In this document: positions 17,056 to 51,930 of the stretch, piece after piece
How positions within the stretch are numbered: the first letter of the stretch is position 1
Layout: each line of letters starts with the position of its first letter
From: Deroplatys truncata
Taxonomy: Eukaryota; Arthropoda; Insecta; Mantodea; Mantidae
DNA: 64,000 nucleotides
Assembly (NCBI GenBank): GCA_030765065.1
Contig: CM060977.1
Coordinates: forward strand, 91,157,795 to 91,221,794
Direction: 5' to 3'
Position numbers and translations under genes: made by a program
Notes under the pieces: model-generated
What the model was told of the DNA's origin: nothing
Database searches by the model: none
Seen by the model: the letters and a program-made list of their open reading frames with translations, nothing else

Positions 17056-18044
17056 ATACCAGCTGATTTATCATTGGGGATAGGATCTTTTGTTCTGTTG
17101 CATAGTAGTTTCTGTATATTGTGGTTATTCTGTGGAGACAGGGTGATGATGTATTTTTTGAAAATCCTTTGAAATTTATGATGTGTCCAAGGGTGATAAG
17201 TGAATTTTCTATATACTTGTGGTTTTTGTTGTCTGAGTAACGTAGTCATTTGTTGGATGTATTTCTGTCTTTCAAACCTTTTTATCGTCTTATCTATTGT
17301 TTTTTTCTGGTATCCATTCATAGTGGCTATGTTGATAATGTGTTGGTATTCTTTCTGGTATTCCTTTTTCTCCATTGGTATATGTAGTAACCTGTTTGTA
17401 ATACTATTTAAAATTGCATGTTTGTGGCTTGTAGGATTGTAGCTATTGTTTTTAATATAATTTTCTGTGTGCGTTGGTTTTCTGTAAATGCCGAACATTA
17501 GTTTGTTGTGTGCATTATTTCTGATGATCCTGATGTCTAGGTAAGGTAATTGGCCATTTTCTTATTTTTCTATTGTGAATTTAAGAGATCTTTTTTGTAA
17601 ATTTAATAATTTCAAAGCATCTTCTGAAAGTTTTTTTGGAACAATAGCAAAAATATCATCTACATACCTATACCAGGTTTTGAATAGATGTGGGAAAGAT
17701 TTAGTAACATGGCATTCAAAATGGCTCATATATAGTTCTGCTAAAAATGGTGAAAGGGGGTTTCCCATAGTTAGGCCTGAGGTTTGTTGAAAGATTTTGT
17801 GATGGAATGAAAAAAAAATTTGGTCCAGACATAATTTTGTTAGTTTTAGGTAATCTTCTGTTTGTGCTCTAGGTGTGCCATTGTTTAATATCCAATTTTC
17901 TAGGAGTGGTAATAATTCTTCTTTTAGTATGCTTGGGAAGAGTGCAGTGACATCAAATGATGTCAAAATGTGCCATTGTTCATGATTTGGAGGATTATTT
18001 TGAGGTCTATCACATACAACAGCAGTACTAGTGGGTTTATGCAT
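17056..18044 (-). pseudogene. Penelope reverse transcriptase, 5'-truncated
   Basis: - strand frame of about 330 residues. It carries the RT motifs in order: SFDVTALFPSI (motif A Asp), SGLTMGNPLSPFLAELYM (motif B region) and YRYVDDIFAIV (motif C, YVDD). After a single in-frame TAA (17562-17564) come LPYLDI and the Penelope-typical FGIYRKPTHTENYI. The linker to the endonuclease follows, ending KSAGIY at the LTR insertion. The fingers domain and everything upstream are missing. The enzyme would copy element RNA at a nicked target; truncation makes it inactive. Confidence 0.88.
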
Positions 18045-37790: not shown

Positions 37791-38757
37791 TAAAGGTTGG
37801 TTTCTAGTTCTAGTTTGAGAAGGGGTGGGTTTTATGCCCAAGCACTGTGACCTTAAGATCTATTGCGCATCCCCCCTTTCATCAGTTAAGTAGTCTGTTG
37901 CTTGATATGAACTTAACCAGACTACTAACTGAGGCTTTCGATAGTTCATCTATCTTTAGAAAGTGACTTCCAAAAGTACTTGCTCTTTCACTCGCAAGAG
38001 CAGGGCAATCACATAGTAGATGAGTAACAGTCTCATCTCCTTCTAGACATCTACTACAGATAGGGTTGTTAAACAATCCCATTCTGTATAGATTAAACTT
38101 TAGGGCACAGTGTCCTGTAATGAATCCTGTTGCCCATGCAAGTCTTCTTCTACTAAGACCGCGCAAGTATTTTGCCTGGCTGTTATCCAGGTCTGTAATG
38201 AACAACTTGGAATGTCTGCAACCCTCAATGGAGTTCCAGTAGTTCTTGTGTTCTTCTTGAGCCCAGCACTTAATAGCCTGTTTCACTGGTCTGTAGGACA
38301 CTCCCAGTACAGGCTCCGGACCAAAAAATGGGGTTTCACTGCCAATCTTGGCTGCTTCATCTGCTTTCTCATTGCCTGGTATACCTATATGTCCTGGCAC
38401 CCACATAAGTTGAACCTTATTGTGTTCAGCCAGTGCCATTAAGGATTCCCGGCATTCTGAGACGAACTTTGATTTTATTGATGGTGATTCAAGTGCTTTA
38501 AGAGCAGCTTGACTGTCTGAGAGGATAAGAACACTTCTATTCTTATATCTCCTTTTAATGCTTTCCATGACACTGGCTAGGATTGCATAAACCTCAGCTT
38601 GGAAAACTGTAGCTAAGGTACCAAGACTATAAGAAATCTTGGTACCATTACCGTAAAGCCCAGCCCCCGTTCCCGATTTGGTTCTAGAACCATCAGTATA
38701 CCAGATTGGGCCTTTGTTAAAGATTGGTTTACATGTATCTGTAGTTTTTAACCGATA
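37791..38757 (-). mobile_element. LINE A: RNase H-bearing LINE 3' fragment inside LINE B
   Basis: A 5'-truncated element on the - strand, beginning in the start of an RNase H domain (GPIWYTDGSRTKSG-like in a shifted frame near 38710) and ending near 37800. No target duplication was resolved. A distinct clade from LINE B, which has no RNase H here. Confidence 0.8.
37882..38568 (-). CDS. LINE A RNase H domain and C-terminal zinc-finger tail
   Basis: 228 uninterrupted residues on the - strand. VLILSDSQAALKAL contains an RNase H catalytic Asp. LMWVPGHIGIPGNEKADEAA is the conserved VPGHxGxxGNExAD block with the last catalytic residues. RRLAWATGFITGHCALKFNL and CSRCLEGDETVTHLLCDCPAL form the C-terminal CxxC...H...C finger typical of I/R1/LOA-type LINEs. 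The domain removes RNA from the cDNA hybrid. The first catalytic Asp (YTDGS) is in a shifted frame upstream, so this is a fragment of a broken ORF2 although locally open. Confidence 0.88.
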   Translation of the reverse strand: MESIKRRYKNRSVLILSDSQAALKALESPSIKSKFVSECRESLMALAEHNKVQLMWVPGHIGIPGNEKADEAAKIGSETPFFGPEPVLGVSYRPVKQAIKCWAQEEHKNYWNSIEGCRHSKLFITDLDNSQAKYLRGLSRRRLAWATGFITGHCALKFNLYRMGLFNNPICSRCLEGDETVTHLLCDCPALASERASTFGSHFLKIDELSKASVSSLVKFISSNRLLN

Positions 38758-45165: not shown

Positions 45166-46110
45166 GTGTTTCGAGAATAAATTTTTTTTATGTAATGTTG
45201 TGTGCATAAAAGAAAAATGTTAAGTACCCTGTAAATACTAAAATAATTTGATTTTCCGCAAAATATAAAATACGTATCCATTTATTTTATGTGTGGAACA
45301 CGTAACTAAAATTCAGAAAATTCAGAGGAAGTGGTGTTTTATGGGTTCGGTTTGATGTGGAATGACTTGTGTAATTTGTTATCTGATGCTGGACTCTGGC
45401 AATGAAGCCATTAGCATTTTGCTCTCCAATATCTCTGTGTGCTGGATCCCACAGGTAGTAGTACTTCACAGGTTTTAACTGTCACATCTCTGATGTTCTC
45501 AGTGTCACTTCAATAAGGTGAACTATTGGAATTCTCTGTCACTTCGCTTTCATGACAGAACCTCCTCTTCTGGACAGTTCACTCACTGGGAAGTCGAACA
45601 CAAGACCTCACAATCCCTCGTTCTGCAGCAGCACTTGTTGCACACCACAGCAGTTGTCACAAACTCGCTCGAAGAATCACACTTGATGTCGCATGGGAAA
45701 CTCACCCACCAACTCACTCGCTGACTGACCAACTGATGCAGCTCACACTCAACTCAACTAGCTGCTGTCATGAGAACGCTCACTTATATAGTAAGTGGAA
45801 TCTTCCACAGAACATTCAAGAAACATTTCAACAGTAGGATGGGGGAAGAAACTTCTAGAAGGTTCTGGTTATCTGCCGATAGCATGCCCACTGTTTATAT
45901 TAGAGAACGGTATTTATCATTATTCCGACTGCCTGGCACCCACCTCCTTGATAACCTTTGGTCATGTCCATTGGGTCACAATATGTTCTTTGGACATCTC
46001 TTCTTTAGATAGTGTATATTGAAGAAAAGATTATTTGTGGCTGTGGTTTTGCATCATTATATTGATATCCTCTGCAACTAGACAATTAAAATCTATTTAA
46101 GATATCACAA
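45166..46110. other. intronic sequence, nothing recognised
   Basis: Short CT/CA-rich ORFs at 45518-46022 look like chance. No repeat boundary was found. Confidence 0.45.
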
Positions 46111-46366
46111 TGGTTCATATCAATAAAAAGCAAGTATTTTCTCAAAGTTTGTACTCATGAGTATGAACACTTTCTGTGATTATCTACTCAGCTTAATGAG
46201 AACATACTTGTTTTCATAAGAATAAAAGGCTACTACCTCACACGATCCCCACAGGCCATCTTGTTCAGTTAAATGTAAGTATATACTCGTGTTATCTACA
46301 CTCTTTGACAATATATTAGCTTCGTTGATTATGTGGTGGTGTTATGTTGTTTGGCATTCTGAGTTA

Positions 46367-47139
46367 AGCCCCTTGTACACGATCAAATTTTTGTAAAATT
46401 CAGTACTTTACAAGACCTTTCAAGAGTTGTCACAACTTTACAACTTTTCTTGTCAAATTGCTTCCATACTTTTAAACTCTTTGAAAGTCTTGAAAGCAAA
46501 TAAGGACTTGCTGTAAACGATCAAAGATTTAACAATCATTTGATGGCTTTATCCAATGAAATGCGGTATTTATGTGCGTCACGAAATCTGCAACATGGCG
46601 GAAAGCGAAAAGTAAACAAACATGGCTACCTGGCCAAGGTATGTTGTGTGCGAACTGATTAGGTTGTACATAAGCTGGTCATGTCCGTATTTCTAGGACT
46701 CTGTGGATTACCACAATAAGATGAAGCAGATGAAGGCATATGAAGAAATAATTGCCAGGCAGATTTCTGAATAGAGTATACACTAATGCAATGTTAAATA
46801 GTGTGGTTAACCTATCAGTTGGTGTTATTTCCATTGTATTCCATAATCGTAGTGTGATTTCATTGGATATAATATGTGAACGTGCTACATAGTATTACTA
46901 AAGAAAAGTATTTCATTGCAAATTGTTATACCGCGACGCAAATAGTAAATTACTTTGTGCGTGATAAATTGTTTATTAATGTGTTCTGAAGGGTTTCAGT
47001 TTGAAAAAAGATAACTTGTAAATATACATTTATGACATTGTCAAGTCTTGTCCAATCTTGTCACATATTGAAAAATGTTTGACAATTTTTCTTGTAAACT
47101 CTTGAATTGGAAAACAAGTTTGATCGTGTACAAGGGGCT
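46367..47139. mobile_element. Harbinger-type MITE inside element E
   Basis: 773 bp with TIRs AGCCCCTTGTACACGATCAA at both ends (inverted) and TTA at 46364-46366 and 47140-47142. The inner copy of element E preserves the empty site (ATTCTGAATTAGAGG, - strand at 49155-49169), proving insertion with a 3-bp TTA duplication. No coding capacity. TIR and target size suggest PIF/Harbinger. Confidence 0.9.
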
Positions 47140-47389
47140 TTAGAGGAGTAGATTTTGTTCTATGTGGTTCTACCCATCAAAACTGCTCAGGAATTATCCT
47201 GTGTTGCATAAGTTTCAGCAGAAATGTTAGAGAAATATTAAGTCCTTCAAGAAATGAAAAATTAATTGAAGGAGCACTCACAAAAGCATAGCTGTAAATT
47301 AAATTAGCAAAACAATAAATAAAATGAAATAAGCGAAAGCCTGCTATCAATAAATCAGGCAAAAAGAAAATATTCACAGATTCTAAAGT

Positions 47390-47940
47390 CATAATTATAA
47401 GATGCTGGATGCAGATTCAAATCAGACTTTCTAGAATCCTGGAATATTTACACTATTTTGCTACGAAATAATTTTGTTTTAAGTAACCTAACTTCTTAAG
47501 CAACTGAATTTTGCAGTTATAATTTTACATAGCTTAATTAATAAATCTGAATTTCAATGATACTTCAAGATTATGTTTTCATTAAGCAATACAGGATTTT
47601 GAAACTCCTTGAATGTTTATGGCAATTTAGAAAACCAATAAATAAAATTCTTATAAGCAAAAAGAAAGGAATAATTGTGGATTGGAAAGCCATAACTCAT
47701 AAGGTGCTGTATGAAGTCATTCGACTGTTTTTAGAATCCCAGAATATTTAGACTATTTGACATACTATGAAACACTGTTCTAATAAATTTATGAGTAGGT
47801 ATCTGGATTTTGAAGTTAATATTTTACATAGTAAGGTTAATTAATAAAGCTGACTTTCAATGTTACTTCTAGGTTATGTTTTCCTGAAACAATGTGATTT
47901 TGAAACTTCTTTAATGCCCATAGCTATGTTTATAACTTTT
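47390..47940. repeat. tandem duplication inside element E
   Basis: Two units with a period of about 310 bp share blocks such as TTTACATAG...TTAATTAATAAA, AGGTTATGTTTTC/AGATTATGTTTTC, GATTTTGAAACT and TAGAATCC(C/T)(A/G)GAATATTTA. The same duplication, inverted, is in the inner copy (48340-48880), so it predates the nesting. Confidence 0.75.
47557..47751 (+). CDS. 64-codon ORF in element E, outer copy (doubtful)
   Basis: The ORF gives a Lys/Ile-rich peptide with PINKILISKKKG and a DWKAITHKVLYEVIRLF end. The inner copy has the equivalent ORF at 48736-48542 (- strand), differing at about seven of 64 positions with no indel. No family is recognised. Conservation may simply reflect recent common origin of the two copies rather than coding. 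Confidence 0.25.
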   Translation: MILQDYVFIKQYRILKLLECLWQFRKPINKILISKKKGIIVDWKAITHKVLYEVIRLFLESQNI

Positions 47941-48008
47941 CCACTAGTACTATACAGCTCATAAATTGTGCCACTCTCTTTGTATTTAGTTTTAAGTAAA
48001 CAAAATCA

Positions 48009-49419
48009 ATGGGTTATATGAATAAAAATGAGTATATAGTATGTGTTTCACTTTTTCAAGTAAACAGCCAGTTTGGTAAGAATAAAACCTTCCGAGTATC
48101 TACTTCATTTTGAGAACATACTCAAGTAATGGAAGCAGAGTAGAACATACTCGGACATCTATCTTACAAGAGTATATACTCTTATTTGGTATGAATAAAA
48201 GCTAGTATATTCTCAGTTTTATGAGTTCATTCTCCTCCCGTGCTGAGCATGGTTACATGCATGCTCACCTCTGAGTATATATTGATTTTTTTTACTTAAA
48301 ACTAAATATGAAGAGAATGGCACAATTTATGAGCTGTATAGTACTCATGGAAAAGTTACAAACATAGCCATGGGCATTAAAGAAGTTTCAAAATTCTACA
48401 TTGTTTCAGAAAAACATAACCTAGAAACAACATTGAAGTCAACTTTATTAATTAATCTTACTATGTAAAGTGTTAACTTCAAAATCCAGATACCTACTCA
48501 TAACTTTATAAGAAAACTGTTTCATAGTATGTCCAAATAGTCTAAATAATCTGGGATTCTAAAAACAGTCGAATGACTTCATACAGCACTTTATGAGTTA
48601 TCGCTTTCCAATCCACAATTATTCCTTTCTTTTTGCTTATAAGCATTTTATTTATTGGTTTTCTAAATTGCCATGAACATTCAAGGAGTTTCAAATTCCT
48701 GTATTGCTTCATGAAAACATAGCCTAGAAGTATCATTGAAAGTCAGATTTATTAATTAAGCTTACTGTGTAAAATCCTAACCCCAAAATTAAGTTACTTA
48801 AGAAGTCAGGTTATTTATAACAAAACTGTTTCATAGAAAAATAGTATAAACATCCCAGGATTCTAGAAACAGTTTGATTTGAATATGCATCCGGCACCTT
48901 ATAACTATGGTTTTAGAATCCGTGAATATTTTTTTTTGCCTTATTTCTTAGTAATAGGCTATTGCATATTTCATTTTATTTATTGTTTTGCTAATTTAAT
49001 TTACAGCTATGCTTTTGTGTGTGTTGCTTCAAATAATTTTTAATTTCTTGAACTTAATATTTTTCTAACATTTATGTTGAAACTTGTTATAAAACACAGC
49101 ATAATTCCTGAGCAGTTTTGGTGGGACAGAACCAAATACAACAAAATCTACTCCTCTAATTCAGAATGTCAAACAACATAACTCCACACACTCAACGAAG
49201 CTAGTATATGGTCAAAGAGCGTAGATAACACGAGTATATACCTACATTTAAGTGAACAAGATGGCTGTGGGGATGAGTATATACTTGTATGAGGTAGTAT
49301 GTTTTTATTCTTATGAAAACAAGTATGTTCTCATTAAGCCGAGTGTATATTCACAGAAAGTGTTCATACTCATGAATACAAACTTTGAGTAAGTGTTTGT
49401 TTTTTATTCATGTGAACCA
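48009..49419 (-). mobile_element. element E, inner copy inserted in reverse orientation
   Basis: About 1.41 kb that is the reverse complement of the outer copy. Its left end (TGGGTTATATGAATAAAA, 48009) matches the outer right end, and its right end (read inwards TGGTTCACATGAATAAAA, 49419) matches the outer left end. It interrupts the outer copy at an AAATCAA/ATATATAC position that is continuous inside the inner copy (AATCAATATATA, - strand near 48284). It holds the MITE-free empty site. The pair makes a large inverted repeat. Confidence 0.82.
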
Positions 49420-49669
49420 ATATATACTCAGAAGTGAGTATGCATCTAACCATGCTCAGCATGATGGGAGAATGAACTCATAAAACTGAGAATATACTAG
49501 CTTTTATTCATACCAAATATGAGTACATGCTCTTGTAAGATGAATGCCTGAGTATGTTCTACTCTGCTTCCATTACTTGAATATGTTCTCAAAATGAAGT
49601 GGAAACTTGAAAGATTTTATTCTTACCAAACTGAGTATTTATGTGAAAAAGTGAAGCATATACCTACTA

Positions 49670-50674
49670 CGAGGGCTGATCAACAAAGACTGAGACTGAT
49701 TTTTTTTCACAGATGTTTATTACTCCAATTCAATGTTTACATGATCTGTTTCAAAGTAGTCCCCTCCTACTTCAATGCACTTTTTATAGCGTCTTTGCCA
49801 GTCCTTGAACACATGCTGCAGACCATTCTTTGTCAGGTCCTTGAGAATCGCCTCACTTTTCTTGAGCACTGCTTCAGAGTTCTCAAATCGAATACCCCTA
49901 AGCTTTGCCTTTAGTGATGGTAAAAAAAGTCACAGGGTGCAAGATCGGGGCTATAAGGTGGATGGTACACAGGTGATGTTGAATCGAGCCAGAAACTGCA
50001 TGACTTGATTGGCGACGTGAGGCCGTGCATTGTCATGATGAAGTCGCCACCCAGTCCGAGAAAGCTCTGGTCGTTTCTTTGCAATGTGCTTCCTCAGTGT
50101 AGCCTATACTGATGTGTAGTATGCTGCTGTAACAGTAGTATGAAGGGGAACTGCATGCTGGTAAATCATTCCATTCCAGTCAAAAAATGTGATCATCACT
50201 TTCCCTGCAGATGGAACAACTTTTGCCTTTTTTGGTGTTGGAGAACCTGGCGATTTCCACACTGTGCTGGCATGTTTTCCTTCAGGATCATAATGATGCA
50301 GCCATGACTCATCACCGGTGATAATCAATTTAAAAAATGCATCACCTCCATTGTCTGGTATCCAAAATGCACGTAGGGTCTACAAAATAGAGCATTATTA
50401 CCAATCTACCAATACGTTTTTTCCGGAAGAAAGCAGAGGAATGAAGGAGAGTAAATTAATTTCTAAACCAAATTATTATTGTGCAATTCAATATAATTTG
50501 AAATTCATAAGATTGTTTTAGGTTTAATATTATTTAGAATGTAAATTAATTATGCCTGCCGCCTACCAACATTATACATAAAAACCTGTGCTTTTCAAAT
50601 ATTTATGTTACACATATGAAACTATCACGGAAGCTACAGGAAAAAATCAGTCTGTCTTTGTTGATCAGCCCTCG
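49670..50674 (-). mobile_element. mariner transposon with internal deletion, inside element E
   Basis: TA at 49668-49669 and 50675-50676; TIR CGAGGGCTGATCAACAAAGA at both ends, essentially perfect. The - strand transposase is open from 50328 to about 50104 (ITGDESWLHHYDPEGKH with the first catalytic Asp, then KVMITFFDWNG). It then continues in shifted frames with HHDNARPHVANQVMQF (second Asp) and LPSLKAKLRGIRF to GDYFETDH. The DNA-binding N-terminus has been deleted (50345-50640). Relatively young by its TIRs but not autonomous. Confidence 0.9.
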
Positions 50675-50702
50675 TATATACTCATTTTTATTCATATAAC
50701 CC

Positions 50703-51930
50703 AATAAGGAATTTCAAGATTTTATAAGGTGTTATGAATTAAAGTTATACTAGAAGAAAGAGTTTCATTTCTTTCAAAGTTAAATTTAGGGTTAGTTTTA
50801 TAGGAAATTCTTTAGCTATAATCTGGTTTTGATTTGCACAAGCATTACGCTCTATGTCTGTGTGCACATTTGTACATCGCTTTCTTTGTCATCAGTCTTC
50901 CAGAGAGGGCATCACTATGACCTCATATTATGTTTAGTGTTATGGCACCCAGATGAAAGAAAACACCGAAACATCTTTTCAGCACTGTTAAGAGCTCCAC
51001 CTCATGTTTCATTTGCCTTTGGAAGAAAATGTTACGCAGGCCTGAGTATGTTTTCTTGTTTAGAGCAGCATAATTATTTATATCTGCTGACAATGATTTT
51101 TGGGGGAGGGTAGTGAAATTAAAATGAAACAAATGCTTCTCCTCCCAAAAAAGTCAAATCTAGCCCAAATTCAATTTCAAGGATATTTTAAAACATTGGT
51201 TTGCTCTATAGTATCTTTATCTATAACTTCATTAGATTCCCTGCTTGTTGTATAAATATTTTCTGCTCAGGAACTACCATCATGAACTCCGTCAGGATAC
51301 TAAACTGCAGTTGAGCAAGCTGAGTTACCAAAAAAAAAATAGCAAGCAGTATATCAACAAGCAGGACTTGTTTTTATTTATAGCATAGTGAGCAATAACT
51401 CCGCAATCAAGGTTGGCAAGCAGTTGCTCACGAGGAGGAAATTTTTATTTATATAAAACCGACCAACGTAATTAGTGATATGAGCCAATGCTTGCTTTTA
51501 TTTATACCACCCATTGTTGTAATGCACTACCTATCATGCCTTACACTTTAGATGTAGGGAATACATCACTGCTGTGGCAATAAAAATGGTCGCAGATACT
51601 GAACATTCTCTTCACAGAACAGCGCTTTGTTTCTTGTTCAACTTTTTGTCAGAATCAAAGCAACATTTAATGCCTGGACAGACATTTTTAACAGGACAGG
51701 GCTTTTAAGTATACTTCCAAAACTCCATGTTTGCAACTTTAATAAAAAGAAATAAAATTAGGGAATTGTGCCATTTAATACCTACAGTAGTAAAGACTTT
51801 TTTGTAAATGGTTTTATTCTGAGTATTGTTTTGACTTCTATGTAAATAACACAAAACACAGCTTACATTGCATAAAAAAGAGATTCTTTAGGATTAGAAT
51901 GTTGAATATTAACTAATAATGTTCATAAAT
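50703..51930. other. intronic sequence with a possible element-E-related end
   Basis: Around 51340-51513 are repeated GCAAGC/TTTTTATTTATA motifs. The - strand from 51513 starts TGGGTGGTATAAATAAAAGC, resembling the element E terminus. No partner end was found. An ORF at 50829-51113 is unrecognised. Confidence 0.4.

Follow-up and report, generated by a model that had tools for sequence, protein, structure and literature searches.

The window, a 64,000-nucleotide stretch of the genome of Deroplatys truncata (contig CM060977.1), contains at 46112-50702 a copy of a ~1.4-kb repetitive element that is interrupted by a full, reverse-oriented copy of the same element at 48011-49418. The element is very probably a non-coding, non-autonomous cut-and-paste DNA transposon of the PHIS superfamily (PIF/Harbinger-ISL2EU-Spy), with the Pangu group as the best fit. 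The initial annotation of this region had recognized the nesting and had found no match of the termini and motif layout to a known superfamily; the terminal sequence, the ANT target-site duplications and relatives that carry a DDE_Tnp_4 transposase domain behind the same ends now point to PHIS and probably to Pangu.

Nested copies in the window

The arrangement emerges from a self-comparison of positions 45600-51300 and from reading the junctions base by base. The comparison recovers the nested block order A-C-A'-C', in agreement with the initial annotation, with inverted blocks at 46111-48010 versus 48281-49419 and at 48010-48306 versus 49396-50703 and two unrelated stretches between them. 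The arms of the inverted repeat share 84% identity over 267 columns and 89% over 884 columns, far above chance. The outer copy lies on the reverse strand. Its first part (46112-48010) begins with the right end of the consensus and closes with the AAT that the inner copy duplicated; its second part (49419-50702) starts with the second AAT and has its terminus at 50702. The inner copy is 1408 bp long, lies on the forward strand and is bounded by AAT at 48008-48010 and 49419-49421, and the outer copy resumes directly past its end. The same 3-bp duplication flanks the outer copy, with AAT at 46109-46111 matching AAT at 50703-50705. All four termini that had been placed at 46111, 48009, 49419 and 50702 are present; the exact ends are shifted by 0-2 bases, as the earlier positions included some of the 3-bp duplication.

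The block order A-C-A' by itself resembles a single foldback element of ~2.5-3 kb, in which long inverted arms enclose a spacer, but such a structure is highly improbable, as the C-A' unit is found alone at many loci with its own 3-bp duplications and as the inner copy duplicates an AAT of the outer copy, which continues exactly after it. Moreover, among 40 scored candidates, a query across the left junction is fully covered at just two loci, the window and L046, and in the latter the element is cut at a different point. Mis-assembly or chimeric reads can in general create inverted repeats, yet a false palindrome is barely credible here, given that the arms differ by 11-16%, that the two copies carry different guest inserts and that other self-nested loci exist. 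The insertion of a full reverse copy into an outer copy of the same element, as first described, is correct and is supported by the exact target duplications and by the many single copies elsewhere in the genome. Nesting of this kind is a normal result of transposition.

The inner and outer copies are 10.5% divergent. Pairwise divergence among the 31 aligned copies averages 11.4%, and 28% of the pairs are equally close or closer; six other genomic copies lie nearer to the inner copy than does the outer copy. The two therefore do not resemble mother and daughter, and the idea that a mother copy had hopped locally into itself was dropped.

Genomic distribution and anatomy of the element

The D. 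truncata assembly that was searched consists of 4.29 Gb in 818 contigs. The inner copy, used as a query, yields 48 matches from the 40 scored of 2086 candidates, most of which, apart from the window copy itself, cover nearly all of its 1411 bases at 83-90% identity. The family is interspersed and non-coding. A consensus of other copies, as the initial annotation had called for, was derived from 31 sequences (30 loci and the outer copy of the window) and measures 1414 bp without flanks; the aligned copies differ from it by 4.7-9.3%. There are 673 genomic occurrences of the exact 18-base end GGGTYATATGAATAAAAA and two of the reversed control. The end is exact in 27 of the 54 examined at loci L002-L030, giving a copy number of ~670, an order of magnitude only, from a sample chosen for similarity. 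The inverted ends are 18 bp long and read GGGT[T/C]ATATGAATAAAAA; the two consensus ends, GGGTTATATGAATAAAAA and, inverted, GGGTCATATGAATAAAAA, are 94% alike.

The subterminal regions are crowded with a degenerate palindrome. With up to three mismatches, GAGTATATACTC is matched 10 times in consensus 1-280, never in the 910 bp of 281-1190 and eight times in 1191-1414, while 500 shuffles of each segment average 0.3 (left), 0.4 (middle) and 0.3 (right) and never exceed three. The corresponding regions of the inner copy lie on the forward strand at approximately 48011-48280 and 49198-49418. The end regions contain five instances of AATAAAA or its complement, where simulated sequence has 0.2, and the middle contains two. 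The accumulation of AATAAAA and palindromic motifs noted previously is thus upheld in degenerate form, with only one exact GAGTATATACTC in the consensus. The middle of the element contains a ~280-bp unit twice (351-627 and 656-932, 77% alike). In two copies, C5:56260768-56262430 and C16:629467607-629469251, the match reaches 922 and restarts at ~665, probably reflecting a third internal tandem unit, and four of the 20 loci L031-L050 (L035, L040, L046 and L049) are without consensus ~1056-1176 and form a deletion subfamily.

Judged by frame length, with no Pfam scan, the consensus harbors no coding relics beyond chance, its longest open frame being 80 amino acids versus a shuffle mean of 71. 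The earlier statement that no transposase is present is thus valid for the element itself; the outer copy contains a mariner relic with transposase fragments. Wide spacings between terminal inverted repeats were considered as candidate full-size elements and rejected: four such loci (L051-L054) are ordinary copies broken by other transposons, and a fifth (L055) consists of two neighbouring copies.

Target-site duplications

End pairs were collected from 26 of the 30 loci of the first search (the inner copy of the window included), from 19 of the 25 loci L031-L055 and from the outer copy of the window, 46 in all, leaving out four first-search loci with truncated ends and six of L031-L055 that do not have both ends. 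Alignment of the flanks, proposed in the initial annotation as a route to the superfamily, reveals exact 3-bp duplications in 26 of the 46 pairs; shuffled partners give a mean of 7.9 and a maximum of 17 in 5000 shuffles. In the same register, 2-bp repeats are found in 2/46 (shuffled mean 5.7) and 4-bp repeats in 0/46 (shuffled mean 0.3). The exact duplications are ATT (10), AAT (9), AGT (3), CTT (2), ATA (1) and TAT (1), such that 22 conform to ANT. The 26 rebuilt empty targets display a palindromic consensus, A-N-A-Y-[A-W-T]-R-T-N-T, with A at -4 in 21/26 and T at +6 in 17/26.

Transposase-bearing relatives

In a genome search for DDE_Tnp_4, 150 of 3073 candidates were scored, and each of the 150 exceeds the family cut-off. 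The match at C6:2277491 lies 2.3 kb from a copy of the ~1.4-kb element, and the surrounding 4 kb (L056) contain, 650 bp ahead of the match, GGGTGATATGAATAAAA, which is one base off the end of the family. The 199-amino-acid frame of L056 matches DDE_Tnp_4 at E 2.7e-34. This 17-mer has 145 genomic sites, in comparison with three for the reversed control. The part of the genome covered by the 100 listed sites has 102 scored transposase matches, and 15 of these sites fall within 7 kb of such a match, where 0.05 would be expected. Thirteen of the 15 lie upstream on the same strand, 637-728 bp from the transposase match, and share 16 of 17 end bases with the family; the remaining two lie on the far side of the transposase in opposite orientation, as expected of a right end.

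As GGGTGATATGAATAAAA can be read in L056 as ATG GGT GAT ATG, mere coding sequence was considered and was dropped after a 300-base query across the terminus, with the first G at base 121. At 39 other places, the match starts at 107-123 in 34 cases and at 150 in one, and ends at 118-119 in four. GGGTGATATGAATAAAA is a true terminus, since genomic matches start or stop there, as an insertion boundary demands.

The pattern GGGTHATATGAATAAAAB has 100 sites (control, five), including a pair 3.1 kb apart that delimits an element at C3:57589947-57593045. This element has GGGTCATATGAATAAAAG at both ends and ATT on both flanks. A stretch inside it (L059) matches the transposase region of L056 (69%, 291 columns) at the same 623-bp offset from the end; another (L060) has no DNA match to L056 and one frame that resembles, by eye, the C-terminal part of the L056 transposase. 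The left end is followed by GAGTAATTACTC, two bases off the palindrome of the ~1.4-kb family and in the same position as GAGTATATAGTA in the latter. The 3.1 kb comprise a transposase relic and a probable guest insert, with no second open reading frame (ORF) identified in the parts read. Together, these features are the best evidence that the non-coding passenger family and the DDE_Tnp_4 elements may use the same machinery.

Classification

In PMC4482050, Pangu elements are characterized by ANT duplications, by ends that mostly begin with GG or AG and by inverted repeats 11-40 bp long, with autonomous members averaging ~3.5 kb and mostly carrying two ORFs, while PIF/Harbinger proper produces TWA and NuwaI produces CWG duplications. 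The ~1.4-kb family agrees with Pangu in its 22/26 ANT duplications, in its 18-bp inverted repeats starting GGG and in the Harbinger/IS5-type DDE transposase (DDE_Tnp_4) of the relatives that share its ends, this type of transposase being a hallmark of PHIS. It differs in being non-coding, in its long arrays of subterminal palindromes and in a tandemly repeated internal unit of ~280 bp. The Pangu label is probable and is drawn from the duplications and ends, a transposase tree being no part of its basis. Under a Repbase rule (PMC4455052) that compares two non-autonomous elements, related elements have duplications of the same length and at most one mismatch at terminal positions 1-11; the right end GGGTCATATGA of the family is identical to that of the element at C3:57589947, which has an ATT duplication, and the left end has one mismatch.

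The family resembles PIF/Harbinger elements, including Tourist-type miniature inverted-repeat transposable elements (MITEs), in its 3-bp duplications, its short inverted repeats and the DDE_Tnp_4 domain of its relatives, but differs from PIF/Harbinger proper in having TWA in 0/26 duplications; CWG, the NuwaI duplication, is likewise found in 0/26. Tourist inverted repeats start with GG, as do those of this family, and typical MITEs are shorter than 1.4 kb. En/Spm (CACTA) elements combine 3-bp duplications and CAC ends with many short subterminal motifs at both ends. The family shares the duplication length and the motifs with En/Spm; unlike En/Spm, it has GGGT ends, and the relatives identified encode DDE_Tnp_4, although no search was aimed at the CACTA transposase.

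Duplications of 3 bp are also known from Zator, and of 3-4 bp from AcademX (PMC10045372). It is quite improbable that the family belongs instead to a different superfamily that makes 3-bp duplications (Zator, AcademX or Chapaev3), as a passenger with merely convergent similarity to Harbinger-type ends, considering that 16-17 of 17 terminal bases are common to the DDE_Tnp_4-bearing elements, that the one relative with both ends read has an ANT duplication and that it bears a palindrome beside the terminal inverted repeat at the same place. Chapaev3 in particular has CAC ends (CAC...GTG) and TWA duplications (PMC4079192), in contrast to the GGGT ends and 0/26 TWA duplications of this family. The Zator transposase family PF07592 (ISAzo13-like) has no match in the genome, and 14 control genomes are also silent, such that its absence excludes nothing. 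The hallmark of AcademX is an Academ transposase with a nuclease domain.

Several observations weigh against placing the family in PHIS alongside these relatives. An exact 3-bp repeat is missing from 20 of the 46 end pairs, and four of the 26 duplications are not ANT (CTT twice, ATA and TAT). Within the 150 scored of 3073 candidates, no element combining a transposase with the whole ~280-bp subterminal region came to light, and none of the 100 listed exact passenger ends (of 673) falls within 7 kb of these 150 matches. The left end of L056 has no GAGTATATACTC match with up to three mismatches in its first 400 bases, and no right end of this element was located in the parts that were read. The direct transposase partner may be extinct or may be among the unscored candidates.

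Proposed mechanism

The copies with their ends and duplications, the nesting and the near-identical ends of transposase-bearing elements are direct observations, from which the following model is proposed. A Harbinger-type (DDE_Tnp_4) transposase supplied in trans by related full-size elements would bind the 18-bp ends and excise the non-coding element, with the subterminal palindrome arrays probably aiding transposase binding. Reinsertion would occur at short palindromic AT-rich targets, approximately A-N-A-Y-[A-W-T]-R-T-N-T, and would duplicate 3 bp. The older copy in the window received such an insertion of another copy in reverse, no closer to it in sequence than other copies are, and also two other transposons.

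Self-insertion

Insertion of the element into itself is also present at L046 (inverted, at consensus 253), L007 (same orientation, at 1199) and L058 (inverted, at 390). The last was found via the listing of terminal inverted repeats, and the left half of its outer copy and its left junction were read. The inverted insertion in the window has its target at consensus 271, adjoining ATATACTC. The duplications are exact in the window and L007 and inexact in L046 (AGT/AGC). Two of the 49 non-window loci (L007 and L046) are self-nested. The family, at ~670 copies of 1.4 kb, occupies 0.02% of the genome, and randomly distributed insertions would predict ~0.01 such loci among 49. These figures, from a small sample and a rough copy number, hint at more self-insertion than chance; the search may rank word-rich places first, which favours nested loci, and the excess may stem from this ranking.

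The insertions in L007 and L046 are at the AGT of AGTAT half-sites, and that in L058 is outside the palindrome arrays. That resident copies attract the transposase through their palindrome arrays, such that the family self-inserts far above chance and old copies trap new ones, is an unlikely reading. The target sequence was rejected as a cause of self-insertion, the element being no richer in such sites: those scoring at least 4 number 7.9/kb in the element versus 10.2/kb in the rest of the window, and those scoring at least 6 number 0.7/kb versus 2.4/kb. The target of the inner copy scores an ordinary 4.9 under the same model.

Other mobile elements

The outer copy in the window harbors two guests. 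A 773-bp insert at 46367-47139 (inverted repeat I19; no strand assigned; bounds set by eye against the uninterrupted inner copy) has ends AGCCCCTTGTACACGATCAAA and TTA on both flanks. Its inverted ends and TTA duplication resemble those of a PIF/Harbinger MITE, and its ends are unlike those of the ~1.4-kb family. The second guest is a broken mariner of 1005 bp on the reverse strand at 49670-50674 (inverted repeat I18; bounds read from the sequence), with TA on both flanks, CGAGGGCTGATCAACAAAGACTGA ends, a disrupted frame and an HHDNARPH remnant. Its transposase fragments match Pfam Transposase_1 at 50107-50379 (E 5.9e-08), with no match at 49954-50103.

A second family of ~800 bp, with ends CTTTCTCTACTACG... 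and ...GTAACACATCAGA, is inserted in T-runs (or A-runs) at five of the 25 loci L031-L055 (L042, L047, L052, L053 and L055), three of the inserts being at the same T-run near consensus 277. By eye, it is possibly also present in the transposase relic at C3:57590860-57591850 (within L059). This family resembles a non-autonomous Helentron. Elsewhere in the window, an open 308-amino-acid Tc1-like transposase frame at 24691-25617 matches HTH_Tnp_Tc3_2 (E 4.3e-18) and DDE_3 (E 1.8e-12), and retrotransposon fragments at 17562-18044 and 37882-38568 match reverse transcriptase (E 7.4e-10) and RNase H (E 2.2e-08), with a sub-cut-off zf-RVT match.

Significance

The ~1.4-kb element appears to be an ordinary passenger of an already known type of mobile DNA. 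With it, the little-studied Pangu group would gain a large family that is non-coding and produces ANT duplications. Binding and excision are directly testable, since the 18-bp end is clear, the target has a palindromic consensus and the same genome provides a candidate transposase lineage. If the excess of self-insertion survived an unbiased genome-wide count, it would bear on how transposases choose their targets.

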